Shown: positions 9,629 through 28,152 of the stretch, in pieces
Layout of the letters: each line of letters begins with the position of its first letter
Numbering within the stretch: position 1 is the first letter of the stretch
Source: an uncultured Ruminococcus sp.
GTDB lineage: Bacteria; Bacillota; Clostridia; Oscillospirales; Acutalibacteraceae
Length of the DNA stretch: 34,393 nt
Reading direction: 5' to 3'
Assembly (NCBI GenBank): GCA_934476515.1
Contig: CAKSNZ010000021.1
Coordinates: 1-34,393 of the forward strand
The notes under the pieces: model-generated
Told to the model about the DNA's origin: nothing
The model's input: the letters and a program-made list of their open reading frames with translations, nothing else
Databases searched by the model: none
Position numbers and translations under genes: made by a program

Positions 9629-11179
9629 TTATGCTTTTATTCTGTTTTGGTTTTCAAGTAATGCAACAATAACAATAAATAGTGGAGTAGTGATTGGTTG
9701 GTCTATGTTTACCATAGCTTGAATACTGTAAGAAATAACACTTGCTACAAGTATAACACAGTATTTATTGCTTAAACTTCTCTTAATTCCACGTATAAGG
9801 GCAGAAACTATAAAAGTAATGTAACTACATACCCCAACTATTCCGATTGTTACAAGGTAATTTAGATAAATATTATGGGCAGCATTGGTTGTTTCATTTT
9901 TGAAAGCCATTAGTTCATCATTGTAACCCATATCAGTCATAATTTGACCAAAGGTATCGCAACCTGTACCGAATAGCTTTTGTAAAATATTTACATTAAT
10001 AAAAATGTAAATGCCTCTTATCCACATAAAGCCTCTGTGAGTTCCCCAGCTGTCATTAAATCTAAAGTATTTCATAGCACCGTTTAGTGTGGATTTTGTA
10101 TCAATAAAAGTAAAGTAACAAAATGTAAATACACATAAAGCAAAGAGCAATATTGTTAAAAAAATAAATGATAGGGTAATTACCTTAGGCATCTTTGTAA
10201 TTGATTTCTTCTTGCTAAAAATATTTAGAAAAATTCCCAAAGCCAATGTGATTGCTATTACAATATTAGTGTTGCCATACACAATGAAAGTTTCTATTGA
10301 ACTAAAGCCCATACTGTAGTCATCCATAATGTAGGAAAAATATCTGATTAATTTACAACCTATAAGCATTAATGAGGTGATAATCAGTAGATTTGAAAAA
10401 TGCTTTAAATTTCTTATAAAGAATATATAGCAAAATACAAATAGTCCTAATGTACCTAAGATACTGCCATCACTGTTGCAACAAACTATACCACCAAATG
10501 TTATTACAGCAGAAATACCGTAAATTATCTTTTGATAATATTTCTTTGAGAGAATAAACAGCACCATACAAAGTGGCATTACAATAGTTAAATAAGCTGA
10601 AAAAATATTTCTGTTGCCTATTGTTGAAATGAACTTTGTGTATTGACTTGAACTCATACCATTGTATAGGTTTAATGGGTCCCAGTAGAACTGTTGCAAA
10701 ATCCCTATAAATGCCACAAATGATGAAACAACTGCCATAACTATTGGAACAACTTTGTTTTCTCTGTATGTTCTTGAAATTACAAAATACACTACAAAGT
10801 AAGTAAAGGTAAGTATAAGTCCATTATTTCTTCCTAATTCACCGGTAAGACTATCAAATTTATAGTCGGAAACCAAGGTGCTTATAACAGAAGAAATTAA
10901 AAATCCTATCATTCCGTAATCGGTAAAAGATAGGATATTCTTTTTATTTTTAACTTTATTTTCTTTATCTCTTTGATTGTAATGAGTCAGTATTACACCA
11001 CCCATTAAAATCAATAATAAACTAGCCAAAACATAGAAGGCATATAGTTTATCATGTCTTATGTAATAATATTTGTCTGATACATATAGGGGAAAGAAAG
11101 ATACCATTAATGTGACAAATATAATGGAAACATTCCCCATGTAAAAGGATAAATCTTTTTTAATTTTCTTTTTCTCCAT
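9629..11179 (-). CDS. O-antigen ligase/polymerase-like polytopic membrane protein
   Basis: A 516-residue integral membrane protein with about twelve hydrophobic helices. The PF04932-type signature lies in the large loop and next helix: FGTGCDTFGQIMTDMGYN, then AHNIYLNYLVTIGIVG near residue 430-450, where the His is typical of Wzy/WaaL-type glycan polymerases and ligases. Such enzymes join or polymerise lipid-linked glycans on the outer face of the membrane. The frame opens at a GTG (11206) inside a terminator hairpin; I prefer ATG 11179 (MEKKKIKKDLSF), though its ribosome site is weak. It is the last gene of the TPP enzyme/cytidylyltransferase operon, but a terminator lies just upstream, so its expression may be lower or conditional. 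Confidence 0.8.
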   Translation of the reverse strand: MEKKKIKKDLSFYMGNVSIIFVTLMVSFFPLYVSDKYYYIRHDKLYAFYVLASLLLILMGGVILTHYNQRDKENKVKNKKNILSFTDYGMIGFLISSVISTLVSDYKFDSLTGELGRNNGLILTFTYFVVYFVISRTYRENKVVPIVMAVVSSFVAFIGILQQFYWDPLNLYNGMSSSQYTKFISTIGNRNIFSAYLTIVMPLCMVLFILSKKYYQKIIYGISAVITFGGIVCCNSDGSILGTLGLFVFCYIFFIRNLKHFSNLLIITSLMLIGCKLIRYFSYIMDDYSMGFSSIETFIVYGNTNIVIAITLALGIFLNIFSKKKSITKMPKVITLSFIFLTILLFALCVFTFCYFTFIDTKSTLNGAMKYFRFNDSWGTHRGFMWIRGIYIFINVNILQKLFGTGCDTFGQIMTDMGYNDELMAFKNETTNAAHNIYLNYLVTIGIVGVCSYITFIVSALIRGIKRSLSNKYCVILVASVISYSIQAMVNIDQPITTPLFIVIVALLENQNRIKA

Positions 11180-11185
11180 AATTTG

Positions 11186-11224
11186 CACCAAAAAAGAGGT
11201 TATCACAATGGTGAAAACCTCTTT
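11186..11224 (-). terminator. Intrinsic terminator inside the operon, just before the ligase gene
   Basis: On the minus strand AAAGAGGTTTTCAC (11224-11211) pairs with GTGATAACCTCTTT (11206-11193) with one mismatch, then a run of T. It begins seven bases after the cytidylyltransferase-fusion stop and ends about seven bases before the ligase ATG. Confidence 0.85.
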
Positions 11225-11230
11225 GTTAAT

Positions 11231-12529
11231 TTAGTCTTCTAATTTGTTTAGAACTTTAAGAATTGAACAAGCCTCATCGTCATTTAGACGGTTGCACTCA
11301 TATCTTTCATCTCTAAGCATAATTAGCAGTTCTTGAATTAGATAACGGAAACCTGTACCTTCAAAGTTAAATGATCTTCTGTCAACCTTTTTGCAACCAT
11401 TTTTAATAACCTTAAAGTAACCTGTATTCCACCAGTCATCTTCAAGAACAATTCTACCCTTAGTACCAATAACAGTTAGGTGGTTGTGTAGGTCAATGTT
11501 CTTACCGATTTCAATTCTTGCAACTGCGTCTTCATATCTAAAGAACATTGAACAATATTCTTCTCCCTCTTCATTACCGGGAATAATGTTCTTAGAAATA
11601 TATTTTGACTCAGTACCAAGTAGCTTTGTTACAGCAGTAATAGCAAGTACAGACATATCTTCAAGTGACTTTTCATATTCAAAGAAGTCGTTGCTCATAC
11701 CAATATCAATACTTAGCACCTTGCCAACTTCGTTACTCTTTGCAATCCATAGAAACTGAGAGAAAGCTCTTAGGTAAACCATAACAATGTTTTCCATTAG
11801 GATAACATTCTTTTCTCTTGCCAGCTGATTAAGCTCTTGACATTTTTCATTGTCAAGTGAGAAAGGAAACTCACAAATAACATGAATACCCTTTTCGATA
11901 CACTGTTTAATATAATCGTATCTTTTATCTAAGTTGCACTTAATATAAGCAATGCTAAGGTCTTGACAGAACTTTTCAAAACAGTTGCCATATGAGTTGA
12001 TTTCGTACTTATTACAAAATTCTTCAGCAACATTAATATCTTCACTAAATACTCTTTCAATGTGAATACCGGAAACATACTTTGTTTCGCCAACAACACC
12101 TAGGTCATCGGCATTGTCAGTAATAACACCAAAGTTTCTGATAGCACTGCTCTTTTCTCTGATTTGTGTTGAAGAAATGTTCTTTGTTCTTTCAAGATAA
12201 ACAACGTTGCAGTATTGCTTTAGGTGATCAAATTTACCAATCCAGTCACTACCAACAACAAGAGTATCAATATCATACTGAATAATATCTCTGGTCTTTT
12301 GACCTAAATATTCTTCAACAATAATTTCATCAACTAAACCTGTTTTCTTAACATTTTCAATTCTTGTTAGAAGTGAATCGTGAACAGAAAGTTTACCTCT
12401 TTCAATATCGTAACTTTCGGAAGTAACACCAACTATTAGGTAGTCACCGTAAGCTTTTGCCCTTTTAATAATATTATAATGACCTTGATGGAACAAATCG
12501 AATGTTCCATAAGTAATAACCTTTTTCAT
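11231..12529 (-). CDS. TagD-like cytidylyltransferase fused to a degenerate Gfo/Idh/MocA domain
   Basis: A 432-residue fusion. Residues 1-130 are a TagD/GCT-type cytidylyltransferase: YGTFDLFHQGH with His14 and His17, and RTKNISSTQIR (114-124), close to the RTxGISTT motif. It would join CTP to a small phosphorylated alcohol to form a CDP-activated group. Residues 133-430 resemble the Gfo/Idh/MocA oxidoreductase fold (KCIEKGIHVICE-type strand, NVILMENIVMVYL, AVTKLLG, VIGTKGRI). However, the nucleotide loop reads GVITDNADDL instead of GxGxxA, and the catalytic EKP motif is EFP (220-222), so redox activity is doubtful. GAGGAG precedes the ATG by six bases. It lies 22 bases after the TPP enzyme and before the polymerase-like gene. 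Confidence 0.8.
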   Translation of the reverse strand: MKKVITYGTFDLFHQGHYNIIKRAKAYGDYLIVGVTSESYDIERGKLSVHDSLLTRIENVKKTGLVDEIIVEEYLGQKTRDIIQYDIDTLVVGSDWIGKFDHLKQYCNVVYLERTKNISSTQIREKSSAIRNFGVITDNADDLGVVGETKYVSGIHIERVFSEDINVAEEFCNKYEINSYGNCFEKFCQDLSIAYIKCNLDKRYDYIKQCIEKGIHVICEFPFSLDNEKCQELNQLAREKNVILMENIVMVYLRAFSQFLWIAKSNEVGKVLSIDIGMSNDFFEYEKSLEDMSVLAITAVTKLLGTESKYISKNIIPGNEEGEEYCSMFFRYEDAVARIEIGKNIDLHNHLTVIGTKGRIVLEDDWWNTGYFKVIKNGCKKVDRRSFNFEGTGFRYLIQELLIMLRDERYECNRLNDDEACSILKVLNKLED

Positions 12530-12551: not shown

Positions 12552-14288
12552 TTAATAAGCCAAAATTTCTTCCATAAGATTTTTGTCAATATAAGGCTTT
12601 TGATTGTACATCTCTTCACCAAAATATGTTTTTGGATAAGCCTTTGACTTTATATCAAGATGAACTTCAATTAAGTTTGGAACATTTTTGTCAACATTCT
12701 TTAGTGTTTCTTCAAGTTCATCAATAGTGCTTACACTGTAAGAGTTGATACCATAAGCCTCACCAATATTCTTAAATACCGGTGCATCATAGCCACCCTC
12801 AGCAGTAGAACCAAAGTGTTTTCCATCAAAGAAGTCATCCTGCTGTTGCTGAATAAGTCCCAAACTTTCATTGTTTAGTACAATAGCAGTAACAGGAAGA
12901 TTTTCTCTCTTAATCCATTGTAATTCTTGAATATTCATCTGAAAAGCACCATCACCACATACAGCAACAGTAGGCTTTTTGTTTAGATAATGTGCACCGA
13001 TAGCTGCCGGTAATGCAAATCCCATTGCACCATGACCACCGGAGAATAATAGTCTTTGGTTATCAGTAATCTTAAATGATTGTCCCATCCATACTTGATG
13101 CTGACCAACATCACAACAAACTACTGTATCATTAGTTGCATAGTTTGAGATAAGGTCAACAAATTTGTTAGGTTCTCTCTCTTTGCTATGATTATCAAAG
13201 TCAACTAAAGGTTCTCTAACTTTCTTACAAGTTTCAACCCAAGATGTCTTATCAACCTTTTTGTCCTTAAGAACCTTTAACATAGCTTTTACAAGAAGGG
13301 CACAGTCACAACAGTAGTGAGTTTCATCACTATGAACTTTTCTTAATAGTTCATTTCTGTCAATATCGGCTCTAATGATTTTTGCATTCTTAGCAAAGTT
13401 CTCACTTTTGCCACCTGTCTGTCTTTTACAGAATGAACAAGCCAGAGAAACAATAAGGTCTGACTTTTTATATGCAAGAATATTAGCATATCTGTGACCA
13501 TAAGCAGCACCGATATAACCAAAGTTAAGAGGATCATCAACTTTTAATAAATGCCTACCAAGTAGGGAAGTGATAACAGGAATATTTAGCTTAGCGATTA
13601 ATTCCAAAATATCTTTGTGGAATTCACTGCCCTTTACAATACCGTTACCAAGCAGTAGCATTGGTTTTTCTGCTTTGATGATTTCATCAATAATGCTTGT
13701 TGCTACCATTTCATAGTTGATAATAACCTTGTCCTTTGGTGGAGTATAGGATTTTGCCTTTTCTAAATCAAGATCCTCTCTCTGTACATTCATAGGAATA
13801 TCTAGTACAACAGGACCTTTTCTGCCTTCATTTGCAATGTAAAAGGCCTTTTCAAGTTCATACTTTAGGTCCTCTACCTTGCTAATATGAGTTGCATACT
13901 TTGTAATTGGCTTAACCATATTTACAACATCAGTTTCCTGGAAACCTTGCTGACGAAGTTCTGAAATACCTGTGTATTCATATTCGTTTAGTTGACCGGT
14001 AATGAATACTACCGGTGTGCTATCGTAGAATGCATCAGCAATACCGTTCATAAGGTTAATAGCACCGGGTCCGGATGTTGAATAAGCTACAGCAGTTTTA
14101 CCACTTGCCTTAGCAAGTCCAACTGCTGCAAAAGCAGCACCTTGTTCATTATAACACATATGGTTTTCAATGCCATCAGCCTTGCACACAGAGTCAACAA
14201 AGTGTGCAATCATAGTACCTTGATAACCAAATATATCTTTTATACCTTGTTCCTTTAAGTAGGAAACAATAAAATCACTTGCTTTCAT
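12552..14288 (-). CDS. ThDP-dependent acetolactate-synthase-like enzyme in a surface-polymer operon
   Basis: A 578-residue three-domain thiamine diphosphate enzyme of the acetolactate synthase family. The cofactor-activating Glu48 sits in CYNEQGAAFAAVG, followed by STSGPGAINLMNGIADA. The central domain is about 190-330. The ThDP motif starts at GDG (445-447) and ends at NN (472-473), and GGHGAMGFALPAAIGA precedes it. There is no ilvN regulatory subunit or branched-chain amino acid gene nearby, and the next gene makes a CDP-linked compound. A role like that of YerE, which adds a two-carbon unit to a CDP-sugar, or another specialised carboligation is therefore more likely than valine synthesis; that is inference. 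AAGGTGA precedes ATG 14288, and a good promoter lies at 14331-14359. Confidence 0.85.
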   Translation of the reverse strand: MKASDFIVSYLKEQGIKDIFGYQGTMIAHFVDSVCKADGIENHMCYNEQGAAFAAVGLAKASGKTAVAYSTSGPGAINLMNGIADAFYDSTPVVFITGQLNEYEYTGISELRQQGFQETDVVNMVKPITKYATHISKVEDLKYELEKAFYIANEGRKGPVVLDIPMNVQREDLDLEKAKSYTPPKDKVIINYEMVATSIIDEIIKAEKPMLLLGNGIVKGSEFHKDILELIAKLNIPVITSLLGRHLLKVDDPLNFGYIGAAYGHRYANILAYKKSDLIVSLACSFCKRQTGGKSENFAKNAKIIRADIDRNELLRKVHSDETHYCCDCALLVKAMLKVLKDKKVDKTSWVETCKKVREPLVDFDNHSKEREPNKFVDLISNYATNDTVVCCDVGQHQVWMGQSFKITDNQRLLFSGGHGAMGFALPAAIGAHYLNKKPTVAVCGDGAFQMNIQELQWIKRENLPVTAIVLNNESLGLIQQQQDDFFDGKHFGSTAEGGYDAPVFKNIGEAYGINSYSVSTIDELEETLKNVDKNVPNLIEVHLDIKSKAYPKTYFGEEMYNQKPYIDKNLMEEILAY

Positions 14289-14461: not shown

Positions 14462-17134
14462 TTATGCCCAAGTACCTGAGAATAGGTTATCTGAACCCCA
14501 ACCTGTAGCCTTGTAAGTTGTGCCACCACTAACCTTTAGGTCATCTGACTGATTCCAAACATTATCCCAGTTGTTGTCAGTTGTTGCACCATTCATTCTG
14601 CAAATGATTAGGTTTTCATAACCACTTGGAACTGATAGAGTATTGTCTTTAATATCTACCCAAACACTATCTGTGTCGTTCCATAGGTAAGCAGCCCATC
14701 TTTCTGTGCCGGTAGTAATTGCAGACATATCAATCTTGATTGTGTTACCCTGAGGAGCAGTTGTTGCTGTAGTTGGCTTAGTTGTAGCTGTTGTAGGAGC
14801 AGTAGGGTCATTGTAAGAGAAAGTTGTACCTACAGGGAATGTATCAACTACCTTAATGCCATACTTCTGAATAAGCGTAGCATCCTTAACGTCAATAGAG
14901 CCATCACCATTTACATCAGCAGCTTTCTTCTGAACATCTGTAAATGTAATCTTGCTTACAGTATATTTTGATACTTTAACTGCGTCCTTAACATTGATTT
15001 GGTTATCAAAGTTTAGGTCACCGTATAGGTAAGTTCTGCTTGGAACAGTTGTTGCAGTTGTAGGATTTGTCTTTGAAGTTGTTGTTGTCTGCTGAGTATA
15101 TTCTTCCCACTTGTGGTTAGCAGAGAACTTCATTGAAGAACCTGAAAGTTCTAGACCAGGTACCATATCTGCCGGATAACGGTTTGTTGTAGCAGTTGAG
15201 TTTTCTGTAAAGATAACTGAACCGTTAGCAAATTCGTCTGGAACTTCTACTACATAGTAGCCTGTGCTACTGTCCTTAGTCATCTGTTTGCCCGGCCATT
15301 CTGCAACTGAATCTGTATCAGTGTAAATGTAAGCATATACGCTTGACCAGTTGTATGATGAGTTATCAAAGTAAATCTTCTGAATTTGGTCTGGATCTAC
15401 TTTCTTAAATGTATAAGAAGCATTAGATGTATCTGTACCATCTGTAGCAGTTAGCTTAACTGTGATTGTTGAGCCGTAAGAAACACCTTCACCGATTGTG
15501 ATTATCTTTGTGCCTGTGTATGTTTCTACTGTACCGTTATCAATCTGATATGTACCTGAAGTAGCATCCTTTAGACCAAGTGTTAGAGAAAGTGTCTGTG
15601 CCTTAAATGAACCACCGGCTTTTGAGATTGTGTTCTGTGGTCCTTTCTTTGCGTTATATACTACTGCAACACCTGATGAACCGATAGTACCTGAGATTTT
15701 ACCGTTAGCAACCTGGAAATCGTTACCTGTAATGACATCCTTATATGTACCGTTAGCCATCTTGTGAGCAGTTACATTAACATTGTTACTACCACAGTTT
15801 ACAAGAACAACACCCCTTGTGCCTCTTTCGTTGTAAGCAACACCGTTTTCTGATGATAGATATTCTGACTGACCAATCATATCATTTTTAAACTTGTTAA
15901 TAGCCTTAACAGTTTCATCAGCCCAGTTAGTTACATCAGCCTGACCCATCATTGCAGAACCCCAATTGTTAGGTCTTGCAAGATACATACCACAAGCCTG
16001 TTGTCTTGTACCAACTAAAGCCCATGTTTTGTCCATATTTGCATTGCCAACATTGCTTGAAGAACCTGCCTGATATGTATCGTGAGATTCGTTCCAAAGA
16101 ACTGACTTGTTACCTGCAGCCTTTGAACCGTCATCTAGGTTAAAGTCACTTCTGGTTGCACCCTGAGCATTGTTGCTGTTAACTGCGTTTCTGATACTGT
16201 TAGAAACTGAAGATAGTGTAATGCTCATTAGAGATGTATAAGAATTAACGATTGACTGACCGTTACTTTGGTCATCGTTACCTGTTGTTTTATCAAGAAC
16301 TTCACCATAATAGAAAGGTGTAACACCTCTTGTTGACTTAGCATAGCTTGTAGTTGCATTTAGAACTGTTGGCCAGAAGTCACTGCCAAAGCCTGAGTCA
16401 GCAGGTGTTTCAATGTGCTTAGCACCGTCAAAACGGAAACCGTCAGCACCGTTATCTATACATTCCTTTAGGAACTTTGTTGCATAGTTCTGAACTGTTT
16501 TGTTACCTGTGTTAAGGTCAGGAATACCATCCATACAGTACTGTGTAATATCGTGACGAGAAGCATACCAACTGTTCTTAGAAATATCATGCCATAGAGA
16601 ACTGTTGTTTCTGATTTCGTCAGGAATACATGGTGAAAGGTCGTTTTTAGACTTATTACCCATATGGTTAAGAACTGCATCAACTACAACCTTAACACCG
16701 TACTTATGAGCTTCATCACACATTGCCTTGAACTGAGAAGCAGTACCTAAAGCACTTGTACCATGAGCATTAGTTTCAATTGCAAAGTCAACAGGCTGAT
16801 AAAGTACCCACCAGCTACCCTTTGCAGTTTTACCTGCAGTAGATTCCTTTGCTACCTGAATAGGTGATGTCTGAACAGCAGTAAAACCTTGGTCTGCGAT
16901 TGTCTTCATATTTTTCTTGATGTTGTCAAATGACCAGTTAAAGCACTGAAGAATCTGACCATCCTGAATGTTGTCAGCAAGTCCATAAGCGTTAGCACCT
17001 GTTGACACAGTTGTTGAGCTAGCTTTTGATGCACTCTTGTCAGTAGATACGGCTGATACAACAGGGATAGATATTGCAGATACTGCCATACATAGTGAAA
17101 GTACAAAGCTAACAAATTTCTTTTTGCATTTCAT
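14462..17134 (-). CDS. Secreted GH13 alpha-amylase with CBM26-like module and dockerin
   Basis: An 890-residue multidomain starch hydrolase. Residues 1-28 are a signal peptide. The GH13 barrel, close to Bacillus AmyE (subfamily 28), spans about 47-495: DAVLNHM (region I), GFRFDGAKHIE with nucleophile Asp236, YYGEVL with acid/base Glu278, and WNESHDTY with Asp352. An Ig-like domain follows (about 500-578), then a CBM26-like starch-binding module (584-680), a Thr-rich linker, a dockerin (703-765) with two calcium loops (GDLNFDNQINVKDA and ADVNGDGSIDVKDA), a second Thr-rich linker and a C-terminal beta-sandwich (798-890) with an NNWDNVWNQSDDL motif. The dockerin implies docking on a cohesin scaffold, as in the Ruminococcus bromii amylosome; no cohesin is in view. 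AAAGGAGGA precedes the start. Confidence 0.93.
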   Translation of the reverse strand: MKCKKKFVSFVLSLCMAVSAISIPVVSAVSTDKSASKASSTTVSTGANAYGLADNIQDGQILQCFNWSFDNIKKNMKTIADQGFTAVQTSPIQVAKESTAGKTAKGSWWVLYQPVDFAIETNAHGTSALGTASQFKAMCDEAHKYGVKVVVDAVLNHMGNKSKNDLSPCIPDEIRNNSSLWHDISKNSWYASRHDITQYCMDGIPDLNTGNKTVQNYATKFLKECIDNGADGFRFDGAKHIETPADSGFGSDFWPTVLNATTSYAKSTRGVTPFYYGEVLDKTTGNDDQSNGQSIVNSYTSLMSITLSSVSNSIRNAVNSNNAQGATRSDFNLDDGSKAAGNKSVLWNESHDTYQAGSSSNVGNANMDKTWALVGTRQQACGMYLARPNNWGSAMMGQADVTNWADETVKAINKFKNDMIGQSEYLSSENGVAYNERGTRGVVLVNCGSNNVNVTAHKMANGTYKDVITGNDFQVANGKISGTIGSSGVAVVYNAKKGPQNTISKAGGSFKAQTLSLTLGLKDATSGTYQIDNGTVETYTGTKIITIGEGVSYGSTITVKLTATDGTDTSNASYTFKKVDPDQIQKIYFDNSSYNWSSVYAYIYTDTDSVAEWPGKQMTKDSSTGYYVVEVPDEFANGSVIFTENSTATTNRYPADMVPGLELSGSSMKFSANHKWEEYTQQTTTTSKTNPTTATTVPSRTYLYGDLNFDNQINVKDAVKVSKYTVSKITFTDVQKKAADVNGDGSIDVKDATLIQKYGIKVVDTFPVGTTFSYNDPTAPTTATTKPTTATTAPQGNTIKIDMSAITTGTERWAAYLWNDTDSVWVDIKDNTLSVPSGYENLIICRMNGATTDNNWDNVWNQSDDLKVSGGTTYKATGWGSDNLFSGTWA

Positions 17135-18858: not shown

Positions 18859-18893
18859 AAAAAACAAAAAGTGGGCATTAACAATGCCCACTT
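18858..18893 (-). terminator. Terminator of the LicD/amidase operon
   Basis: AAGTGGGCATT (18869-18879) and AATGCCCACTT (18883-18893) form an 11-bp stem with a 3-base loop; on the minus strand a T-rich tract follows (18868-18858). It abuts the end of R1 copy 2. Confidence 0.9.
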
Positions 18894-18939: not shown

Positions 18940-19677
18940 TTACTTCATAACACCGTTTTCATACTTAGTATTGATGATTTCGGCAACTGCAACATCAAGG
19001 TCTTCTTCTTTAATCTTGCCATTCTTAACAGCACTTGTAATTGTCTTTACTGCTGTTCTTAGGTCACTTGGCATTAGGATTATCTGATTTCCATCATTAA
19101 AAGCAGTTAGAACATCTTTTTTAATGTTTTTGCTTTTTGATAAGTTATCAGAAACTTGAAGTTGGTCTTTGTATGTAAATGTTGATTTTGTACCATCTTT
19201 CATAATAAATAGAGGTGTTTTGGAGTATGACTGAGTTGTATTTATCATTTCTTTAAAAGCTTTTTCACTTTCAACATTCTTAGGATAATAAACAATACCA
19301 CCAACAGGGTATTTCTCTAGTTGAGTTTTTGTAGTTTCACCTGCCATAGTAGCTACATCAACACCGGTTAACTGTTCCGGAGTAACAACAAATAGCTGAC
19401 ATACCTTTTCGTTAAGTGACATTTTTTCTACATATTCTTCAGCTTTGATTACATTCTCACTAATAGGAGAAGTAGTTGTTGGTTCTGTTGTTGAAACAGT
19501 TGTAGTAGTGGTAGAAGTTGTACCGATAATAGTGTCTTTTGCTGAACTAAAAGCCTTTGACAGTTCGCTTCTAAATACCCAACCACCAACTGCAAGAATT
19601 GCTACGACAAGAATAACAACAATAAGGATTACAAGTCCTTTGTGGCTACTATTGCCATGTTTGTTTCCGTTTGACAT
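18940..19677 (-). CDS. Membrane-anchored GH3-like protein missing the catalytic core
   Basis: A 245-residue protein. ATG 19677 is chosen because AGAGGTGA lies six bases before it; the frame opens two codons earlier at a TTG. A membrane helix covers about 14-33, then a Thr-rich linker (53-70). Residues 83-157 match the first part of GH3 beta-N-acetylhexosaminidases (MSLNEKVCQLFVV, YPVGGIVYYPKNV, TPLFI). Residues 190-242 match the very end (AFNDGNQIILMPSDL, AVKNGKIKEEDLDVAVAEI). The roughly 170 residues that normally lie between, including the catalytic Asp and the substrate-binding KH motif, are absent. It is thus probably not a hydrolase, but may bind wall glycan outside the cell. Last gene of the LicD operon, 21 bases after the amidase. 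Confidence 0.7.
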   Translation of the reverse strand: MSNGNKHGNSSHKGLVILIVVILVVAILAVGGWVFRSELSKAFSSAKDTIIGTTSTTTTTVSTTEPTTTSPISENVIKAEEYVEKMSLNEKVCQLFVVTPEQLTGVDVATMAGETTKTQLEKYPVGGIVYYPKNVESEKAFKEMINTTQSYSKTPLFIMKDGTKSTFTYKDQLQVSDNLSKSKNIKKDVLTAFNDGNQIILMPSDLRTAVKTITSAVKNGKIKEEDLDVAVAEIINTKYENGVMK

Positions 19678-19698
19678 AAACAATCACCTCTAAATTAT

Positions 19699-20535
19699 TT
19701 AATGCTTACTTTCATAATAAGCTATCATACCGTTTGTTATACCATCAACCATTTTGTTTTGGAATGTTTCATCGGACATTTTCTGATCTTCTTCAGGATT
19801 TGTCATAAAACCCAGTTCAAGAAGAACGCAAGGAACAGTTGTAAAGTTAAAGCCTACTAGGTCGTTTCTTTCAACAGTACCTCTGTCAGCAAGACCGGTT
19901 GACTGAATATATTCCTTTTGAATGATTGAAGAAATGTTCTTGCTTTCCTTTGCAATATTCTTATCAATATGCTGTTCTGATGGATATAGGGTAGATGCTC
20001 CATTTACAGAAGAATCATCAAGACCATCGGCATGAATTCTAAAGGCTAAGTCAACTTTGTGTTTGTTACCGTACTCAGCTCTTTGTACTAAACTCATAGG
20101 AGTAGTCTTTTTAGTTCTAATCATAAGGACAGTACCACCAAGTTTTTGTAATTTTTTCTGTAACTTTAAAGCAATTTCAAGTGTTAAGTCACCCTCACGC
20201 TTTTTTGTTACAATACCGGTAGTGCCTGTAGAACTGTTTTCATAGGTAACTTCACCATCACCGGCACCCTTGTACTTTGGTTCAACAAAGTTTCCACTGC
20301 AACCATGACCTGCATCAAGAAGAACTTTAAAGCCGGATAGCTTACCCACTTTTTCAGTTGGCTTTGTGGCAGTAGTTGTTGTGGTAGTAGAAGTGGTTAC
20401 TTTCGTACCGGTGTTTGTAGTAGTTGTACTACTGATAGATGTAGTACCCTTAGTATTGTTTTCAGCACTTTTTCCACATCCTACAAGAGAAATGAGGAAA
20501 ACTAATAGCAAAGAAAAGCTAATAATTTTTTTCAT
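19699..20535 (-). CDS. Lipoprotein N-acetylmuramoyl-L-alanine amidase (Amidase_3)
   Basis: A 278-residue lipoprotein. The signal ends in a lipobox SLVGC with Cys20, then a Ser/Thr-rich spacer (28-58). The zinc amidase domain spans about 68-275: LLDAGHG (His77), KKREGDLTLEIA (Glu114), FRIHADG (His168) and LLELGFMTN with catalytic Glu240. All three zinc ligands and the catalytic Glu are in place, so it should cut the bond between MurNAc and L-Ala of the peptide stem outside the membrane. It starts nine bases after the third LicD-family stop, which places wall remodelling in the same transcript as the LicD transferases. AAGG precedes the ATG. Confidence 0.9.
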   Translation of the reverse strand: MKKIISFSLLLVFLISLVGCGKSAENNTKGTTSISSTTTTNTGTKVTTSTTTTTTATKPTEKVGKLSGFKVLLDAGHGCSGNFVEPKYKGAGDGEVTYENSSTGTTGIVTKKREGDLTLEIALKLQKKLQKLGGTVLMIRTKKTTPMSLVQRAEYGNKHKVDLAFRIHADGLDDSSVNGASTLYPSEQHIDKNIAKESKNISSIIQKEYIQSTGLADRGTVERNDLVGFNFTTVPCVLLELGFMTNPEEDQKMSDETFQNKMVDGITNGMIAYYESKH

Positions 20536-20544
20536 AAAGATACC

Positions 20545-21750
20545 TTACTTTGACTCAAGAGAGATAATAGGTTCCATATAAGTTTCAGGAGTGATTTCTT
20601 CTAACTTATCAGCAATTTCATCATTACCTTCAAATCTGAAAATCATCATCTGAATATCAAAAAGTTCTTTGTTAACTGCAAAACCCTTGCCTTGCTTAAA
20701 AGCAATAAGTGTTGCAATTCTGTTTGGTCGCATAATCTGTGAAAGTCTGTAGTAATCTTCATTCTTTACAAGATTGCGAATAACACCCATCTTTGGCATG
20801 TAGTAAAAGTATAGTCTGGCTCTTGTACCGGTTCTTTTTGCTAAACTCCAAATCTGTTTCTTCTGTCTGTCATATTTATTAGAGAATTTGTAAATAAACA
20901 TATGTCTTGACTTCCTTCTAAAATATCTTTTAAATATATTTTTGTTTCGTGTTAATGTTCGGCTAAACTGTTTGCAAGAAGTATCTAGGAGAACAATGTT
21001 GTCTTTTTCTTCCTTAGGCATTTGGTTTCGCCAATCATAGTTAAATAGTTTGTCTAGGATAGACTCTATCTTTGTAGAGATTGAAAAACTTTTGCCATCA
21101 ATCTCTACAGATTTTACTTTTTTCAGAGGGTCATATGAAAAGGTTTCTAGTGTTTCATTAAACCCTTTAATTGAACAACGAGAGGTGATTTTGCCTTTAT
21201 GCCCATTTGAAAGTTTCTCAAAGATATTTCTGGATATTTTGTTGCTACCTGTTAGTTTCATAATGTTAACTATAGGTACAGGCAATAAATATTTGAAACT
21301 TTCAACATTTACAATACTGCAAAAATGTTTCTCCCAACCATGTTCCCAAAATCTATACTTAAAATGTTGGAACTTGGTGTTTTCCTCATTCCTTATAGGT
21401 AAAATCTCAACATAGATACCGGACATAAAGGTGTTTGCCTTTTGATCCAGTGAAATATTTGTTGTTTCACTGTTGCAGTATCTGGCTGAGTAATCCATAT
21501 ATGAAGGGTTGTTGTACATAGAGTCAAAGGTTCTTGTATAGAGTCTTTCTTTGCTCATAGCTTTACATAGTTTTGTAAAGTCATCATTATGCATAATGAT
21601 TCTTGCACAATCATCTTCAATAGTATGCTTGGTAATAGCACTTACTGCTGTTTTACCGTATAGGGAATAGGATATGTTGTTTTTCTTGCAAATATCATCA
21701 ATTTCTTCAAGTAGTTCTAATACACACTTACTTGCAGATTTGTCATACAT
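20545..21750 (-). CDS. LicD-family paralog without catalytic motifs (third of three)
   Basis: A 401-residue protein; ATG 21750 overlaps the stop of the gene before by eight bases (translational coupling), while the open frame begins further up at a TTG. The N-terminus aligns with the neighbouring LicD: LEEIDDICKKNNISYSLYGKT. At the place of GGTLIGA it has GKTAVSA, and where the active paralog has IPWDDDMDI it has IEDDCARI, so the DxD metal site is gone. ARYCNSET aligns with the next conserved block (ARYTDRTS). The middle is basic (IFKRYFRRKSRH). It ends with a helical segment and shows no TPR-like tail. Likely a non-catalytic partner, or a very diverged transferase; this rests on motif loss only. 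Confidence 0.65.
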   Translation of the reverse strand: MYDKSASKCVLELLEEIDDICKKNNISYSLYGKTAVSAITKHTIEDDCARIIMHNDDFTKLCKAMSKERLYTRTFDSMYNNPSYMDYSARYCNSETTNISLDQKANTFMSGIYVEILPIRNEENTKFQHFKYRFWEHGWEKHFCSIVNVESFKYLLPVPIVNIMKLTGSNKISRNIFEKLSNGHKGKITSRCSIKGFNETLETFSYDPLKKVKSVEIDGKSFSISTKIESILDKLFNYDWRNQMPKEEKDNIVLLDTSCKQFSRTLTRNKNIFKRYFRRKSRHMFIYKFSNKYDRQKKQIWSLAKRTGTRARLYFYYMPKMGVIRNLVKNEDYYRLSQIMRPNRIATLIAFKQGKGFAVNKELFDIQMMIFRFEGNDEIADKLEEITPETYMEPIISLESK

Positions 21751-24181
21751 TACTATCACCAGGAGCAACTAAATCATGGTCAGTGTGCTGTGGTCCGTCA
21801 ACAGTATTTCTAAATCTCTTACCTAAAACCATAGGTGTTCTTCTTACTTCTGGGTCAGCAAATGCACCAAGGTCATTAATAATTTTTATCATTGCATCTA
21901 CATCAATTTCCTGACCAACAAATACCTTGTCGATAAGTGAAACTTTGCTGTAAATCTTAGTAACATTGTTACTGTCACCGTAAGGAGCCTTCCACTTTTC
22001 GAACATATTGTTACGCATCATTTTTTTCTGATTCTTGTTGGCTCTTTCTTCTCTTACTGTTTCAACATTAAGTTTACGTAGTAGTCTTACATATTCTAGG
22101 TAACTATCTAGTTTCTTAAGGTCAGCAATAAATCTAAACTTTAGAACACAAAGTAGTTTTTCATCTTCGGTGTTTTCAGTAGCAGAAACATAAAGTTTAA
22201 CAGCTTTTTCACTTTCACCTTTCTTGTAAAGAACATCACCAAGGATAATATCCTTAACACTTGAAGGCTTTAACTTGTTAACTTTTTCTTCTAACTTTAG
22301 AAGTTCATCATAATCTTCACAAAGAATTGACTGTGTGTAAAGTTTCTTTTCGTTTTCATCAGCAATAAAGAAACCAACAACCTTTTCTACTGTTTTTGCA
22401 TAATTGTCACCTAAGAAACGGCTCTTTTCTTTTAGGAAGTCAAATAGGGAATAAACTCTATCATTCTTACCTTCTTCAATAATAAGGTCAACATACTGAT
22501 TAATTAGCTGTAGGTTTTCAGGTAAAACAGATAGTGCCTTTGCAGTGTCAAAGATAGTTTTGATGTTAGGAATATTTTCAGTAACAATATCCTGAATGTC
22601 AAGTTGAGTAAATCCGTTAAGTGTGTGATGGAAAGCATCAACATATAGGTTAACAAACTTCTCGGACTTACCGTTACTTTCAAGGTCAATCTGATATTTT
22701 AGTAGGTCACCATCATCAGAATATAGTTCTAGGCCCTTGTTAATAATACTGTTAAGGTCATGGAAGTTTTCTTCCATACCTAGTTTCATTAGAATATAAA
22801 TTCTAAGTTTAATAATACCGATTGAGTAAGGATACTTTTTGTATAGATAATCACTCTGTTCCTTAGCATCAACAAGTTTGCCGATACTTACATTGTGTAC
22901 TGTTTCTCTGAAGAAGAGAATATCTCTCTTTAAACCTAGCATAAATGGAGTTACAACTTTCTTCTGTTCTGTAACAGTAATGTATCTCATAGCCTTAGAG
23001 ATATTACCTCTGTTAAATAGAGTAAGTACAACCTTGTCAGCAATATCATCAGATAGCTGAAGTAGTACAGGATGACGATATTTATAAACATCATTGTAGT
23101 TGTCACGACCAAAATAATCTTTACGGAACTGTAGTGCAATATAGTCTGCGAAAATTCCTTCAAGAGTAGCAAAGTCATTGTTGCTATATGCTTCATTAAT
23201 TTCATCTTGTAATTCAGCATATTCATTTCTAAAGTCCTTAGCCTTTGACTTTAGTGAAACGGAAATATTAAAGTTTTTGATAACTAGCCATAGTGGCATA
23301 AATGGCATAACCCATGCTTTTTTGCGTAAGAACTTTTTCATTTCTTTCTTAGGGTCAACAAACTGCTTGATTTCATTTCTGATAACTTTGTAATCAGTAT
23401 CAAGAGAGAAGATAGCGTTGTGACCTGCTTGTTCGGTTGCAGGAGGTACAAACATCCATTCATCTTCGTAGTGTTCTACCAAATAGTCACTGATATAGTC
23501 AGGAGCTTGACCCTTAATATCTTCAAATAGAACCCAGTTCTTACTGTCACCAAAAATTTCTTTCTTAAATAGAAGTGGAGTACCACCCCAACGAAGAACT
23601 ACATAAGGACAATCCTCTTCTTTGTAGCTAAACATTTTCTTCTGTAAATCATCAAGAACTTTATCTCTGCCTTGGAATCTCATCTTTAAACGGTAGAAAC
23701 CATATCTAAACTGGTTAGCACCAAAACGATAAGAGTAAAGGATACAAGGGTTAATAAGGTCACTGTAAAGTGTAATATCCTTAGTGTATTGATCCCAAGC
23801 CTTTAGGTCAGGAAGATAGTCGTAACAGATAATATCAATCATATCACCTGCTACATCATCAAAAAGTACCTGTGTTGAGTGTACTGCTGATGAAGTTCTG
23901 TCTGTGTATCTGGCAATAACATTGTGGAAGTTGTGGTTAAGTTCCTGACACTCAAGAATTCTGTTGTCAGGTAGTTCAGTCTTACAAACTTCAACAAACT
24001 TGTCCCAGTTCTTTCTTGTCATTGTAATGTCCATATCGTCATCCCAAGGGATAAAACCTCTGTGACGAATAGCACCAATAAGAGTACCACCGGCAAGTTG
24101 ATAGTCAATGTTGTGCTTTCTACATAATTCATCCACTTCTTTGTATAGAAGATATAAGTGTTGTTGTTTATCAGTCATCAT
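21743..24181 (-). CDS. LicD-family phosphotransferase with long helical-repeat tail
   Basis: An 812-residue protein whose first 270 residues are a canonical LicD domain: DYQLAGGTLIGAIRHRGFIPWDDDMDI, with Gly31-Gly32-Thr33 and the metal-binding cluster Asp47-Asp48-Asp49 and Asp51. Downstream blocks are VIARYTDRTSS and GDMIDIICYD, then EDEWMFVPPATEQ. LicD/fukutin-type enzymes transfer a phospho-alcohol (phosphocholine, ribitol or glycerol phosphate) from its CDP form to a glycan. Residues about 310-770 are helical and repeat-like (DKVVLTLFNRGNISKAMRYI, SDDGDLLKYQ, DVLYKKGESEKAVKLYV), resembling TPR units. Of the three paralogs here only this one keeps the active-site residues. No signal peptide is seen, so it probably acts in the cytosol or at the membrane face. 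Confidence 0.88.
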   Translation of the reverse strand: MMTDKQQHLYLLYKEVDELCRKHNIDYQLAGGTLIGAIRHRGFIPWDDDMDITMTRKNWDKFVEVCKTELPDNRILECQELNHNFHNVIARYTDRTSSAVHSTQVLFDDVAGDMIDIICYDYLPDLKAWDQYTKDITLYSDLINPCILYSYRFGANQFRYGFYRLKMRFQGRDKVLDDLQKKMFSYKEEDCPYVVLRWGGTPLLFKKEIFGDSKNWVLFEDIKGQAPDYISDYLVEHYEDEWMFVPPATEQAGHNAIFSLDTDYKVIRNEIKQFVDPKKEMKKFLRKKAWVMPFMPLWLVIKNFNISVSLKSKAKDFRNEYAELQDEINEAYSNNDFATLEGIFADYIALQFRKDYFGRDNYNDVYKYRHPVLLQLSDDIADKVVLTLFNRGNISKAMRYITVTEQKKVVTPFMLGLKRDILFFRETVHNVSIGKLVDAKEQSDYLYKKYPYSIGIIKLRIYILMKLGMEENFHDLNSIINKGLELYSDDGDLLKYQIDLESNGKSEKFVNLYVDAFHHTLNGFTQLDIQDIVTENIPNIKTIFDTAKALSVLPENLQLINQYVDLIIEEGKNDRVYSLFDFLKEKSRFLGDNYAKTVEKVVGFFIADENEKKLYTQSILCEDYDELLKLEEKVNKLKPSSVKDIILGDVLYKKGESEKAVKLYVSATENTEDEKLLCVLKFRFIADLKKLDSYLEYVRLLRKLNVETVREERANKNQKKMMRNNMFEKWKAPYGDSNNVTKIYSKVSLIDKVFVGQEIDVDAMIKIINDLGAFADPEVRRTPMVLGKRFRNTVDGPQHTDHDLVAPGDSNV

Positions 24182-24200
24182 AGCTTTTTATTTCCTTACA

Positions 24201-26684
24201 TTAAATTTGAATTTGATTAGTTAAATTATAGAGTGAAATAGCAATTTCTCTGGTAAAGTAACTGCTTTCATCAATAGAATGTTCTTTAATAAAATCATTC
24301 TTTTGTTGAATAGATAGCAGTCCTGTTTTTGTAATCAGTTCTAAGAAATCAAGAACACTTGGATAAATCTTCTTTATTCTTTCTTCGTAAAATTCATAAA
24401 TAGATTTTTCACTTTTAAGTTCTTTTTCCTTTAATTTCTTAGTGCTGATTTTGTTATCGGAACTACTGTCATATATATGTTCAGTTGAACTTGTCAGTTC
24501 TCTATAAATACAATTTATTTCACCTAAAAAATCCTTTTTGATTACAAGGTTAAGGTAAGGGTCTTTGTTATCCTTAGCAACCTGAAACAAAATTTTACTA
24601 AACTTTTGAAATTCTCCAATTTTTCTTAGTACGTGGGATTTTAGTATTAAACAGTATAGATAATTAATGTCCCCAATATCTATGTTACTCATATAACTAT
24701 CTATATTATCATGAATCATAGATAGCTTGTTAAAGTCAGTACAATTAATTATCTCTGCTGAAACACAGGTAACAAATTCATTGTTGCAAATACCTTTAAC
24801 AATTTTGTGATACCAGGAAGATATTGTTCTTTCTGTTTTAGAAAAAATATTTTGAGCAAATTTTTCTTTGTATTTATACCTTAGGTTAACAAGATAATAT
24901 ACAAAGTCATATTGCTTTTTTGCTTTTCTTTCTTTGCCCTCTGTATTTTCAATTTCTTTATTCATCAATTCAAACTTTTTGTTGTGTAACCTAAAGTCAT
25001 CATTAAGAATAAGAAGCAGTTTGTCCAGAAAGTTTTTATCATTAGTATCCTTAATTAATGTATCAAGATATTTATCTATATTATATCTAATCTCTCTTTT
25101 AGTAACAATATTGTCTGCTTTAAAGTAAGAGTCAATGTACCCCATAATACCTTTTTCGAAATTATCATTAAAAATAACCTCGCTTTGATATTTTAGCAAA
25201 TCACCATCATTAGGAAAAATCTCAAGGCCTCTGTTAATAAGGTCATTGATTTCATCTTTGTGGTCATCAGCAAAGAAACTCTTTAGCAAACAATAAATTT
25301 TTAGTTTAATAAAAGAAATATTTTTAGGATATTTTTTTAGAAGTTTACTTAGTATAGAAATCGCTTTGTCAAACTTATTTTCATCAATAAGATTAAGAGC
25401 TTTTTTGTAGTGAAAAATATTTTCCTCTACCACTTTCATTACAAGAGTTTTCTTGAAATGGTAACTATAAACTTCTATAAAACGTTTTGCTTTATCAATT
25501 CTGCTGGTGTGAAAAAGTGTAAGTACAACAGCTTCATAATACTCAGGGTCAATCTTAATAAGTAAAGGATGATGATAACGATAAACATTATCAAGTTCTT
25601 TGCTACCAATCAATTCTTCACTGCTTTGGTTCTTAATATATTCCTTAAAAATATCAGAAAGTTTATTGTAGTTTTCTTCTTCACAATACTTTTCTATTTC
25701 TTCATTTTTACTACGCAAAAAGTTATGGTCCTCAAGGCTTTTGCCAATAAGTTCAATCTTACTTCTAAAATCCTTAGTTTTGAAACCTTGTTTTTCAGTT
25801 AAAAAATCAAAGTTCTTCTTTTTGTCGTATTCTTTGTTAATCTCTTCTTTATCAATAAAGTTGTATAACTCGGATTTTATATTTTCATATGTTGTTTTCT
25901 TATTTAGAATCAGTGCGTCATCTATACTCTTAGGAGTGTTTTGATACATCCATTCTTCACCATATATAATGGAAAGGTAAGAGTAAGGACTTCCAAATGT
26001 CCTAAACTTTTTTCCTGCAATGGTAACAACAGAATTAAATGAACCTACAATTCTTTTTGGAATACATATAGGCAAAGATGGTTCTCTAACCATATAAAAA
26101 TTGCAGTTATCATTATTGAATTTTCCTAGGTTATATTCCATAGAAGTAAGTAACTTTTCTTTGAAAGTTGCTTTGCCTTTTACTTTATTAAAAAAATAAG
26201 AAAATTTGTTATCTTCATACGGTAAACTATAGTTTTTACTGTTATTTAGTATGTCGCAGTAAAGCCTTAACTTTTTATAATAATGGTCAGCATCTTTTCT
26301 GCTGTTTCTTACTTTGTCCAAACAATAAATATCAATACCAATACCGGCTTTGTCACCGGTAACTAGGTTGTGTTTGTCTATAAAAGTTGTTTTTGTGTTT
26401 ATATATCTGGCGTATGAATTTGTACATAACTCATTGGTAATTCTACAGTCCAGAAACCTATGGTTAGTTCTTTCACATTCCTTGCTACATATCTCACAAA
26501 ACTTATAGTAATTATTGCTTGTCATAAAAACAGAAATAGTGTTACTTTCAGGTAGTAAAGTGTCAATGCTGATTGCCCCTAAAAGTGTGTCGCTACCAAT
26601 ACCGTAAGAAATGTTGTGTTTTTTGCAAATATCAGCCATTTCCAAAAGTAACTGATACAAAATTTCTTGATGTTGTGTTAGCAT
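24201..26684 (-). CDS. LicD-family paralog with degenerate active site and TPR-like tail (first of three)
   Basis: An 827-residue protein homologous over its length to the next gene. The N-terminus ICKKHNISYGIGSDTLLGAI matches CRKHNIDYQLAGGTLIGAI, but GGT is SDT and the stretch that should read IPWDDDMDI reads LPESNTISV, so every acidic metal ligand is lost. SYARYINTKTT, GIGIDIYCLD and GEEWMY still align with the active paralog. In the tail, RYHHPLLIKI, EAVVLTLFHTSRIDKAKRFI and FPNDGDLLKYQ match RYRHPVLLQL, KVVLTLFNRGNISKAMRYI and YSDDGDLLKYQ. Old duplication with loss of catalysis and retention of fold is the simplest reading; the frame is intact and long, so it is not a pseudogene. GGAG lies ten bases before the ATG. 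Confidence 0.75.
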   Translation of the reverse strand: MLTQHQEILYQLLLEMADICKKHNISYGIGSDTLLGAISIDTLLPESNTISVFMTSNNYYKFCEICSKECERTNHRFLDCRITNELCTNSYARYINTKTTFIDKHNLVTGDKAGIGIDIYCLDKVRNSRKDADHYYKKLRLYCDILNNSKNYSLPYEDNKFSYFFNKVKGKATFKEKLLTSMEYNLGKFNNDNCNFYMVREPSLPICIPKRIVGSFNSVVTIAGKKFRTFGSPYSYLSIIYGEEWMYQNTPKSIDDALILNKKTTYENIKSELYNFIDKEEINKEYDKKKNFDFLTEKQGFKTKDFRSKIELIGKSLEDHNFLRSKNEEIEKYCEEENYNKLSDIFKEYIKNQSSEELIGSKELDNVYRYHHPLLIKIDPEYYEAVVLTLFHTSRIDKAKRFIEVYSYHFKKTLVMKVVEENIFHYKKALNLIDENKFDKAISILSKLLKKYPKNISFIKLKIYCLLKSFFADDHKDEINDLINRGLEIFPNDGDLLKYQSEVIFNDNFEKGIMGYIDSYFKADNIVTKREIRYNIDKYLDTLIKDTNDKNFLDKLLLILNDDFRLHNKKFELMNKEIENTEGKERKAKKQYDFVYYLVNLRYKYKEKFAQNIFSKTERTISSWYHKIVKGICNNEFVTCVSAEIINCTDFNKLSMIHDNIDSYMSNIDIGDINYLYCLILKSHVLRKIGEFQKFSKILFQVAKDNKDPYLNLVIKKDFLGEINCIYRELTSSTEHIYDSSSDNKISTKKLKEKELKSEKSIYEFYEERIKKIYPSVLDFLELITKTGLLSIQQKNDFIKEHSIDESSYFTREIAISLYNLTNQIQI

Positions 26685-26730
26685 TTTCTATATACTCCAA
26701 ATAAGTTCATCTTAAAAAATTAAGTGAAAA

Positions 26731-27468
26731 TTAGAAATATTCGTAACCACCACTAATTTCTAACAATGTACCGTTGATAAAGTCATTAGTCATTGTATCA
26801 TAAACAAGTTTTGCAACTTCATCAGGTTGTGCAAAACGATGTAGGTTAATCTTTTTGTTGATTCTGTCGTAGCTTTCTTGTGAACGGCCTTTCTGCCAAG
26901 GAGTTTCAACGAATGATGGAGCAATAGCGTTGATAGAAACGTTCTGACCGTCAAATTCCTTTAGCAGGCATTTTGCAAGGTGATGAACACCGGCTTTTGA
27001 AACGGAATATACTAGGGAAGAACTATATGAAAGTTTGCCACATAGTGAACCCATAAAGATAATCTTACCACCATCATTAAAGTGTGGCTTAAACTTCTGA
27101 ACCATAAATGTAGGAACAGAAAGATTAGTTCTTAGGATTGTGTCCCATAGTTCATAGTCGTATTCTTCAAACTTTTTGTATGTGCCGATAGCTGTGTTAC
27201 ATACAAGCCAGTCAATCTTTTCAGATACTTCCAGCACATCTTTTACAAAGCCCTCCATACCTTCATATGTTGACATATCAGCATAAATGAAAGTAACCTT
27301 GGCTCTGTCTGCTTCAGAAAGTTCATTAGACATTTCTTCCATCTGATTTTTATCGAAATAATTAATAATTAGCTTATCGTTTTTGTCAGTGGATTCTTTT
27401 AGTAGTTTGTTTGCAATAGCTTTACCAATGCCGGAAGTAGCACTGGTAACAATCATTGTTTTTGCCAT
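26731..27468 (-). CDS. SDR-family (FabG-like) NAD(P)-dependent dehydrogenase
   Basis: A 245-residue classical short-chain dehydrogenase/reductase. The cofactor loop is TSATSGIG (8-15). The usual NNAG is NTAI (91-94). The catalytic set is Ser141, Tyr154 and Lys158 in YSVSKAG, with the normal 13-residue Ser-Tyr spacing, followed by INAIAPSFVETP. It would oxidise or reduce a hydroxyl/keto group. As first gene of the LicD operon it may form the alcohol or sugar that is later activated and transferred, though fatty-acid FabG-like roles are not excluded. GAGGG is seven bases before the ATG; the promoter is at 27563-27591 and an inverted repeat lies in the 5' leader. Confidence 0.88.
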   Translation of the reverse strand: MAKTMIVTSATSGIGKAIANKLLKESTDKNDKLIINYFDKNQMEEMSNELSEADRAKVTFIYADMSTYEGMEGFVKDVLEVSEKIDWLVCNTAIGTYKKFEEYDYELWDTILRTNLSVPTFMVQKFKPHFNDGGKIIFMGSLCGKLSYSSSLVYSVSKAGVHHLAKCLLKEFDGQNVSINAIAPSFVETPWQKGRSQESYDRINKKINLHRFAQPDEVAKLVYDTMTNDFINGTLLEISGGYEYF

Positions 27469-27509
27469 AATTATCCCTCAAATATAAATTTAGTTAATTT
27501 TATAAAGAT

Positions 27510-27547
27510 TGTGTTGTAATCAGCTTTTTAACGGGCTAATCAACACA
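27510..27547 (-). promoter_or_regulatory. Inverted repeat in the leader of the LicD operon (possible operator)
   Basis: TGTGTTG (27510-27516) and CAACACA (27541-27547) flank a 24-base centre with further partial pairing (AGC/GCT). It lies between the -10 box and the SDR start, and next to a marR gene, so it could be an operator or an RNA hairpin. Confidence 0.4.
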
Positions 27548-27562
27548 TACTTTAACTAATTC

Positions 27563-27591
27563 ATTTTATCATTTGGTATATTATAAGTCAA
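27563..27591 (-). promoter_or_regulatory. SigA promoter of the SDR-LicD-amidase operon
   Basis: Minus strand: TTGACT (27591-27586), 17-base spacer, TAAAAT (27568-27563). It is the only convincing promoter I see for the six minus-strand genes down to 18940. Confidence 0.75.
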
Positions 27592-27621
27592 CAAATTTTT
27601 GGGTTACAAATTGCTTACAAT

Positions 27622-27684: not shown

Positions 27685-28152
27685 TTAGTTGTGTGTGTCA
27701 GAATAAGCTAGGTGATTTAGGTTATTCTGAATTTTTTCTACGATTTCTAGGAACTTCTGGAAATCTTCATCAGAAATATCCTCAGTAACCTTATCTGTTA
27801 GAACATCAAGTGTTTCCATTTCTTTCTGAACTAGAGGAATTGTTGAGTCAACAAGCTTTAGTCTTACCATTCTTCTGTCGTTTTCATCAGAGATAGTCTG
27901 TAGGTAACCGTCCTTACGAAGCTTTTCAACTTCTCTTGAAACAAGACCCTTTGAAACATAGATGTTAGTTGCAATATTGCTAATTGTGTCATCACTAGGG
28001 TTTACATAAAGACTAGTAAGAATAGCCATACCTGTAGGTGAGATAACCTCATCATTAACTAGGCTTGTCTGTGCACAGTTACGGTAGTTGTTTGTGATAG
28101 CCTTACATAGCTTGTTTAGGATGATTGTGTTGTTGTATAGTTCGTTACCCAT
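27685..28152 (-). CDS. MarR-family transcriptional regulator
   Basis: A 155-residue winged-helix regulator. Helices at 1-60 form the dimer part. The DNA-binding part is about 62-110: TISNIATNIYVSKGLVSREVEKLRKDGYLQTI, then the wing DENDRRMVRLKL, with the DxxDRR motif nearly canonical. The C-terminal helices (VTEDISDEDFQKFLEIVEKIQNNL) complete the dimer. Proteins of this type usually repress their own and adjacent genes and respond to small aromatic or oxidising ligands. It lies upstream of the SDR-LicD operon in the same direction and divergent from a cupin gene, so either may be a target. AAAGGAG lies nine bases before the ATG. Confidence 0.9.
   Translation of the reverse strand: MGNELYNNTIILNKLCKAITNNYRNCAQTSLVNDEVISPTGMAILTSLYVNPSDDTISNIATNIYVSKGLVSREVEKLRKDGYLQTISDENDRRMVRLKLVDSTIPLVQKEMETLDVLTDKVTEDISDEDFQKFLEIVEKIQNNLNHLAYSDTHN

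Follow-up and report, generated by a model that had tools for sequence, protein, structure and literature searches.

What reaction could be served by an operon that joins three genes of the LicD family to a peptidoglycan amidase and a shortened relative of the GH3 glycosidases? Such an operon, consisting of six minus-strand open reading frames (ORFs) at 18940-27468, lies between a promoter-like site and a terminator-like hairpin in the 34,393-nucleotide stretch of DNA from an uncultured Ruminococcus sp. that was analyzed here (contig CAKSNZ010000021.1; the whole stretch is referred to below as the window). In order of transcription, its genes encode a short-chain dehydrogenase/reductase (SDR), three LicD-like proteins (LicD1, LicD2, and LicD3), an Amidase_3 lipoprotein, and a membrane-anchored GH3 remnant (Table 1). 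The original prediction, made from the sequence of the window, correctly placed all six genes and both control elements. It missed a second module at 9629-14288, which is our main addition; its three genes code for a thiamine pyrophosphate (TPP) enzyme, a fusion of a TagD-type cytidylyltransferase with a Gfo/Idh domain, and an O-antigen-ligase-like (Wzy_C) protein. We propose, with a probability of roughly 0.6, that two modules cooperate to decorate or prime a surface glycan with a phospho-alcohol and that the operon is the half responsible for transfer; the second module is probably the donor-making half.

When 161 genomes of the genus were searched, 7 proved to have LicD2 orthologues (56-82% identical, with one fragment at 71%), and all six genes occur in the same order in four of these carriers (G1123, G1083, G1106, and G1173). 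G1099 has an extra copy of LicD1, G1107 shows the first four genes before its contig ends, and the operon of G1080 is in fragments consistent with the gene order. Broader samples, searched under strict limits, contained no LicD2 orthologue (0 of 400 and 0 of 295 genomes) or, in a sample of 398 genomes, only one 34% match (G088). A scan of genome contigs with a LicD2 alignment returned no carrier among the matches listed, which reflected common LicD motifs and the best of which was 31% identical, and plasmid records gave no match.

Within the operon, successive gaps from the SDR gene to the GH3 gene measure 46, 19, -26, 9, and 15 bases. Among the promoter-like sites listed for the window, five weaker ones excepted, none on the minus strand falls in the last of these gaps, between the amidase and GH3 genes. 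The promoter upstream of the SDR gene was retained in all of the upstream regions that we aligned, namely, those of six of the eight known operons, window included: TTGACT is followed, after 17 to 18 bases, by TAAAAT in five of them and by TATAAT in one. Promoter-like sites as such are not in excess in the window (65 found versus a mean of 61.8 in shuffled DNA). The original prediction had treated the six genes as one unit, a view that could have foundered on adjacency peculiar to this genome or on a strong promoter separating the last two genes; the recurring gene order and the single conserved promoter bear it out. Upstream of the promoter is a conserved box, TTGTAAGCAATTTGTAACCC, that might be an activator or UP-type site; it occurs once in the window (0.01 expected), is present with 0 to 1 mismatches in four of the six carriers aligned, and has decayed in the other two. 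Coregulation of the TPP module through this box was considered and found to be unsupported, as the box is not repeated before that module. Directly upstream of the operon, a gene for a MarR-type regulator (27685-28152 in the window) is also seen in G1123, G1106, G1107, and G1173; G1083 and G1099 lack it at this place.

The second module follows the distribution of the first. Orthologues of the TagD fusion (66-97% identical) are present in exactly the seven LicD2 carriers among the 161 genomes, the next-best match being 39% identical, and in all seven the genes for the TPP enzyme and the Wzy_C protein lie beside it (in G1080, the fusion is in two pieces). A distance of 4.7 to 6.8 kb separates the two modules in the window, in G1123, and in G1099; they are probably near each other in G1083, where the contigs are broken inside a MutS gene. 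Twelve other genomes match the fusion at 1e-20 or better, eight of them with TagD-only proteins and four (G1182, G1176, G373, and G1070) with full-length fusions that are 39% identical or less over the whole length; in G373 and G1070, this relative (38%) sits between a class V aminotransferase gene and a LicD gene. The PDB chains closest to the TagD domain are true TagD/TarD enzymes, with Bacillus subtilis TagD (1coz) matching at 3.6e-33 and 118 bits, whereas enzymes acting on choline score 23 bits or less. Against TIGR01518, the domain reaches 3.7e-32 and 111.1 bits, which is under the equivalog cutoff of 165.4.

The original prediction had the LicD genes encode enzymes that transfer CDP-activated phospho-alcohols, and for LicD2 this chemistry holds: it is the only LicD protein of the operon with a match to Pfam LicD (PF04991; E = 2.7e-29, 103.3 bits, cutoff 22.6), and its FIPWDDDMD motif is invariant in 15 of 15 aligned rows. 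However, three LicD genes do not amount to three transferases, since the motif is absent from all 12 LicD3 sequences aligned and from LicD1 of this lineage. FIPWDDDMD is gone from LicD1 in the window and in G1123 and kept in LicD1 of the other carriers seen, so that, by sequence, its loss appears confined to the window's lineage. LicD1 has no Pfam LicD match and scores 410 bits against a true LicD gene at the same position in L108. The LicD3 rows (the window plus 11 of 13 listed homologues, chosen by hand) contain a D-x-D string in 2 of 12 cases by pattern count, in both outside any PWDxD motif. Kinship of LicD3 with the family is indicated by a profile-profile match to LicD2 (88% probability, E = 3e-06), by a match of E = 1.3e-4 to the LicD-type NCBIfam model NF045866, far under the cutoff of that model, and by 3 of the 12 members that reach Pfam LicD (best, 9.7e-08). 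The LicD3 profile matched no LicD-type structure in the PDB, and its structure model is poor (mean predicted local distance difference test score, 52.2). Because database homologues are 401 amino acids (aa) long, the true start of LicD3 may lie later than annotated here, which would shorten the overlap with LicD2. The repeat signal in LicD2 is weak; no TPR model matched at E values up to 1, and TPR structures in the PDB matched at an E value of 0.19. Many LicD2 relatives are named for TPR-type repeats, and TPR models are precomputed for several of them.

A similar division applies to the two last genes, which the original prediction had both acting on peptidoglycan. The amidase scores 131.8 bits against Amidase_3 (cutoff 27) and carries the metal-site motifs DAGHG, RIHADG, and ELGFMTN, but the GH3 protein, in the original prediction a putative glycan-binding remnant, has lost both of its catalytic motifs. 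Its Pfam and fold matches both point to the GH3/NagZ family; compared with the NagZ-type beta-N-acetylglucosaminidase YbbD of B. subtilis (PDB 3bmx), it lacks about 190 residues, including the KHFPGHG loop and the nucleophile Asp. Each of these motifs is absent from all 23 short GH3 forms aligned, which were chosen by hand from a list of 59 proteins (P0121-P0179) that contains some fragments. When 100 genomes of the genus were searched, 26 had a GH3 match. The short form was found in five of these, all of them operon carriers; in the sixth carrier of the sample, G1107, the contig ends before the place of the GH3 gene. The remaining 21 matches are frames of 413 to 612 aa, with no LicD or amidase match within ~1.5 kb on either side. 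Wherever both genes are visible, the short GH3 gene directly follows the amidase gene, after 15 bases in the window, 21 in L107, 53 in L108, 59 in L111, and 82 to 83 in L109 and L178.

Selection was assessed with the NG86 method on a single pair, the window and G1123 (L107 and L116). The ratio of nonsynonymous to synonymous divergence (dN/dS) is 0.03 to 0.14 across all nine genes of the two modules, with 0.032 for the SDR (which is 77-85% identical in carriers outside the window's lineage), 0.125 for LicD1, and 0.097 for LicD3 (which is 53-59% identical in distant relatives). LicD1, LicD3, and the GH3 remnant are thus kept under purifying selection despite the loss of their motifs. Synonymous divergence (dS) is 0.52 to 0.90 in all nine module genes and 0.16 to 0.38 in six flanking or intervening genes; correspondingly, DNA identity is 77 to 92% in the modules and mostly 92 to 97% in the flanks. 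Both modules look as if they had been replaced by diverged alleles via recombination, as at surface-glycan loci, with other causes being possible.

How might these parts work together? In the cytosol, the TagD domain would make a CDP-alcohol, either CDP-glycerol or a close relative. Since plain CDP-glycerol would leave both the TPP enzyme and the SDR unexplained, these two may shape a different alcohol. LicD2, together with LicD1 where it is intact, would then transfer the alcohol with its phosphate from CDP to a precursor, either a glycan or a lipid-linked one. The putative noncatalytic LicD partners would be LicD3 and, in the window's lineage, LicD1. Outside the membrane, the Wzy_C protein would act on the glycan and the lipoprotein amidase would cut peptidoglycan in the vicinity. 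The dead GH3 protein, which is membrane anchored, might position or switch the amidase.

Known systems provide precedents for the central step. Cps7C of Actinobacillus pleuropneumoniae, a TPR-LicD enzyme, polymerizes glycerol-3-phosphate from CDP-glycerol (PMC11666461). Its pathway has a supply of CDP-glycerol, and a TPR-type part accompanies its LicD catalytic domain, as may also be the case in LicD2. Cps7C is a 378-aa protein with an N-terminal TPR part, however, whereas LicD2 has 812 aa, an N-terminal LicD domain, and only a weak repeat signal; the available text of that report describes no amidase, GH3 remnant, or LicD pseudo-paralogues with Cps7C. In lactococcal wall polysaccharide loci, LicD occurs with glycerol-phosphate, TagD1-like, and Wzy genes, and in lactococcal and enterococcal wall polysaccharides LicD is similarly tied to side groups of glycerol phosphate or ribitol phosphate and is accompanied by genes for a cytidylyltransferase and Wzy; the accessible part of this source describes neither a TPP enzyme or a decayed Gfo fusion nor an amidase or a GH3 remnant (PMC8327497). 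Given that TagD enzymes make CDP-glycerol and that LicD enzymes move phospho-alcohols, these precedents suggest that the group transferred by LicD2 would resemble phospho-glycerol and that a glycan precursor would receive it. The pneumococcal LicD1 and LicD2 proteins, which attach phosphocholine to teichoic acid, are comparable in that two LicD transferases serve one polymer from a CDP-alcohol donor; however, as far as the available text goes, the donor step there belongs to LicC (CDP-choline) rather than to a TagD-type enzyme (PMC13385700), and the flippase and choline genes of that system are not seen here. For control of the amidase, an analogy may be drawn with the degenerate LytM proteins EnvC, NlpD, and DipM, in which, according to the portions of the literature at hand, a dead wall hydrolase controls a live amidase, but their LytM fold is unrelated to the GH3 fold of the remnant. 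A search of the open-license literature found nothing on this gene composition and no paper joining LicD with Ruminococcus bromii or with a pseudoenzyme.

Several points weigh against the two-module proposal. G1106 and G1173 have the modules at separate places, some of the 161 genomes are drafts, and the carriers may form one clade, in which case the co-occurrence may count a single event. Active Gfo/Idh/MocA enzymes have a GxGxxG cofactor motif and an EKP lysine; judged by its sequence, the Gfo/Idh half of the fusion is decayed, with GxGxxG found in none of eight aligned sequences and the EKP position occupied by EFP or DFP in six of six aligned carrier sequences. Oxidation of the CDP-alcohol by this domain, a step that we had considered, was dropped because of the missing motifs. 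Foldseek with the GH3 model found nothing at an E value of 0.001 or better (best, 1.8e-03). We infer, moreover, the donor, the acceptor, the direction of the pathway, the amidase partnership, and the link to the wall, as we do the phosphodiester product and wall acceptor of the original prediction. Finally, the LicD enzymes are predicted to be cytosolic and the amidase and GH3 protein to be outside, so that a joint machine is not required.

This predicted difference in compartment also favors an explanation in which two unrelated functions share one transcript, with the LicD proteins decorating a glycan inside the cell and the coexpressed amidase-GH3 pair serving peptidoglycan turnover outside, its GH3 member derived from a NagZ-like wall-recycling partner. 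The full-length GH3 relatives found without LicD elsewhere in other genomes fit such an origin, as does the neighborhood of NagZ and an amidase in B. subtilis. The short GH3 form is nevertheless confined to carriers, always right after the amidase where both can be seen and in several genomes at a small distance, and we consider this explanation rather unlikely. It is possible, if tentative, that LicD2 is a transition transferase, priming or lengthening a linker of polyol phosphate for a polymer of the teichoic-acid type that would be made by two ~1000-aa PF04464 proteins encoded elsewhere in the carriers. Cps7C is a precedent, as described in the text available to us (PMC11666461), and paired PF04464 proteins of 1012 to 1033 aa are present in G1123, G1083, and G1106. 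Additionally, a strong PF04464 form (229 bits or more) was found in 9 of 12 noncarriers versus none of the six carriers searched (G1123, G1083, G1106, G1107, G1099, and G1080), an absence that may merely reflect kinship. On the other side, the PF04464 genes show no linkage to the operon, noncarriers have similar forms of 900 aa, and the TPR part of LicD2 is weak. Most of the six carriers have weaker ~1000-aa PF04464 proteins in place of the strong form; G1107, which has no PF04464 match, is again a point against a transition transferase.

It seems improbable that the operon resembles lic or pnt loci in producing decorations of phosphocholine or phosphonate. Phosphocholine pathways do use LicD as the transferase (PMC10434233), and phosphonate clusters commonly include a nucleotidyl step (PMC6697681), as far as the accessible parts of these sources show. 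The cytidylyltransferase found here is of the glycerol-3-phosphate kind, however, and no PEP mutase, choline kinase, LicA, LicB, or LicC was found in those proteins of the window that were scanned, a search that did not extend to whole genomes. Least of all do we favor the idea that LicD1, LicD3, and the GH3 protein have no function and are simply decaying: their catalytic motifs are lost, but their frames are intact in several species, LicD3 is 53-59% identical in distant relatives, and dN/dS is 0.08 to 0.13. Taking the two-module proposal further, we speculate, as a long shot, that the envelope machine consists largely of retired enzymes, with one or two LicD subunits still live at its center. 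Structural or acceptor-binding roles would fall to LicD3 and, in the window, to LicD1; a decayed Gfo domain would ride on the cytidylyltransferase, and the lipoprotein amidase would have the dead GH3 protein as its dedicated activator. A so far undescribed branched phospho-alcohol donor would be built by the TPP enzyme, by analogy with branched-sugar pathways, in which a C2 unit is transferred from pyruvate, and by the SDR. If this were true, the GH3 remnant would represent an activator of an amidase that had arisen from a GH3 enzyme.

Several neighboring genes were also noted. The gene beside the TPP gene encodes a dockerin-CBM26 amylase in the window (14462-17134) and in its G1123 counterpart, and a large beta-helix protein in four other carriers. 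An NTP_transf_5 nucleotidyltransferase (window 5356-6534) is also encoded near the TPP-TagD module in G1106 (L162 12268-13449). A secreted GH25 lysozyme-type protein with three Big_2 domains (window 3274-4890) has a 53% identical relative near the module in G1083 (L163 9869-11296).

Table 1. Features of the two modules and of related loci (positions refer to the window unless a locus is named)
Feature	Position	Strand	Length (aa)	Remarks
Wzy_C (O-antigen-ligase-like) protein	9629..11206	-	525	Pfam 1.8e-10
TagD-type cytidylyltransferase fused to decayed Gfo/Idh domain	11231..12529	-	432	PF01467 9.3e-17
TPP enzyme, acetolactate-synthase type	12552..14288	-	578	
Terminator-like hairpin with T run	18869..18893	-		
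GH3 remnant, membrane anchored	18940..19683	-	247	Glyco_hydro_3 7.2e-09; both catalytic motifs deleted
Amidase_3 lipoprotein	19699..20535	-	278	Pfam Amidase_3 3.5e-38; catalytic motifs intact
LicD3, LicD-like	20545..21768	-	407	No PWDxD catalytic motif
LicD2	21743..24181	-	812	Sole LicD here with intact catalytic motif
LicD1	24201..26684	-	827	No catalytic motif in the window's lineage; C-terminal part weakly TPR-like
SDR-family reductase	26731..27468	-	245	Pfam adh_short_C2 2.5e-37
Promoter of the six-gene operon	27563..27591	-		TTGACT-17-TAAAAT
Conserved box 5' of the promoter	27601..27620	-		Exact in the window
Distant TagD-Gfo fusions	L169 7213-8535; L170 1163-2434			Near class V aminotransferase and LicD
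Beta-helix genes beside TPP gene	L162 1421-4516; L163 5447-8296; L165 8243-11536; L167 481-3993			

On the basis of the dockerin-CBM26 amylase, the carriers look like Ruminococcus bromii and its relatives, which are abundant starch degraders of the human gut, and some LicD2 relatives carry the name Ruminococcus sp. A donor module and a transfer module, together with two markers that are cleanly inherited with each other, open the surface chemistry of these bacteria to testing. The LicD and GH3 proteins that are dead yet conserved offer, in turn, a test case for pseudoenzymes as partners in glycan transfer and in amidase control.

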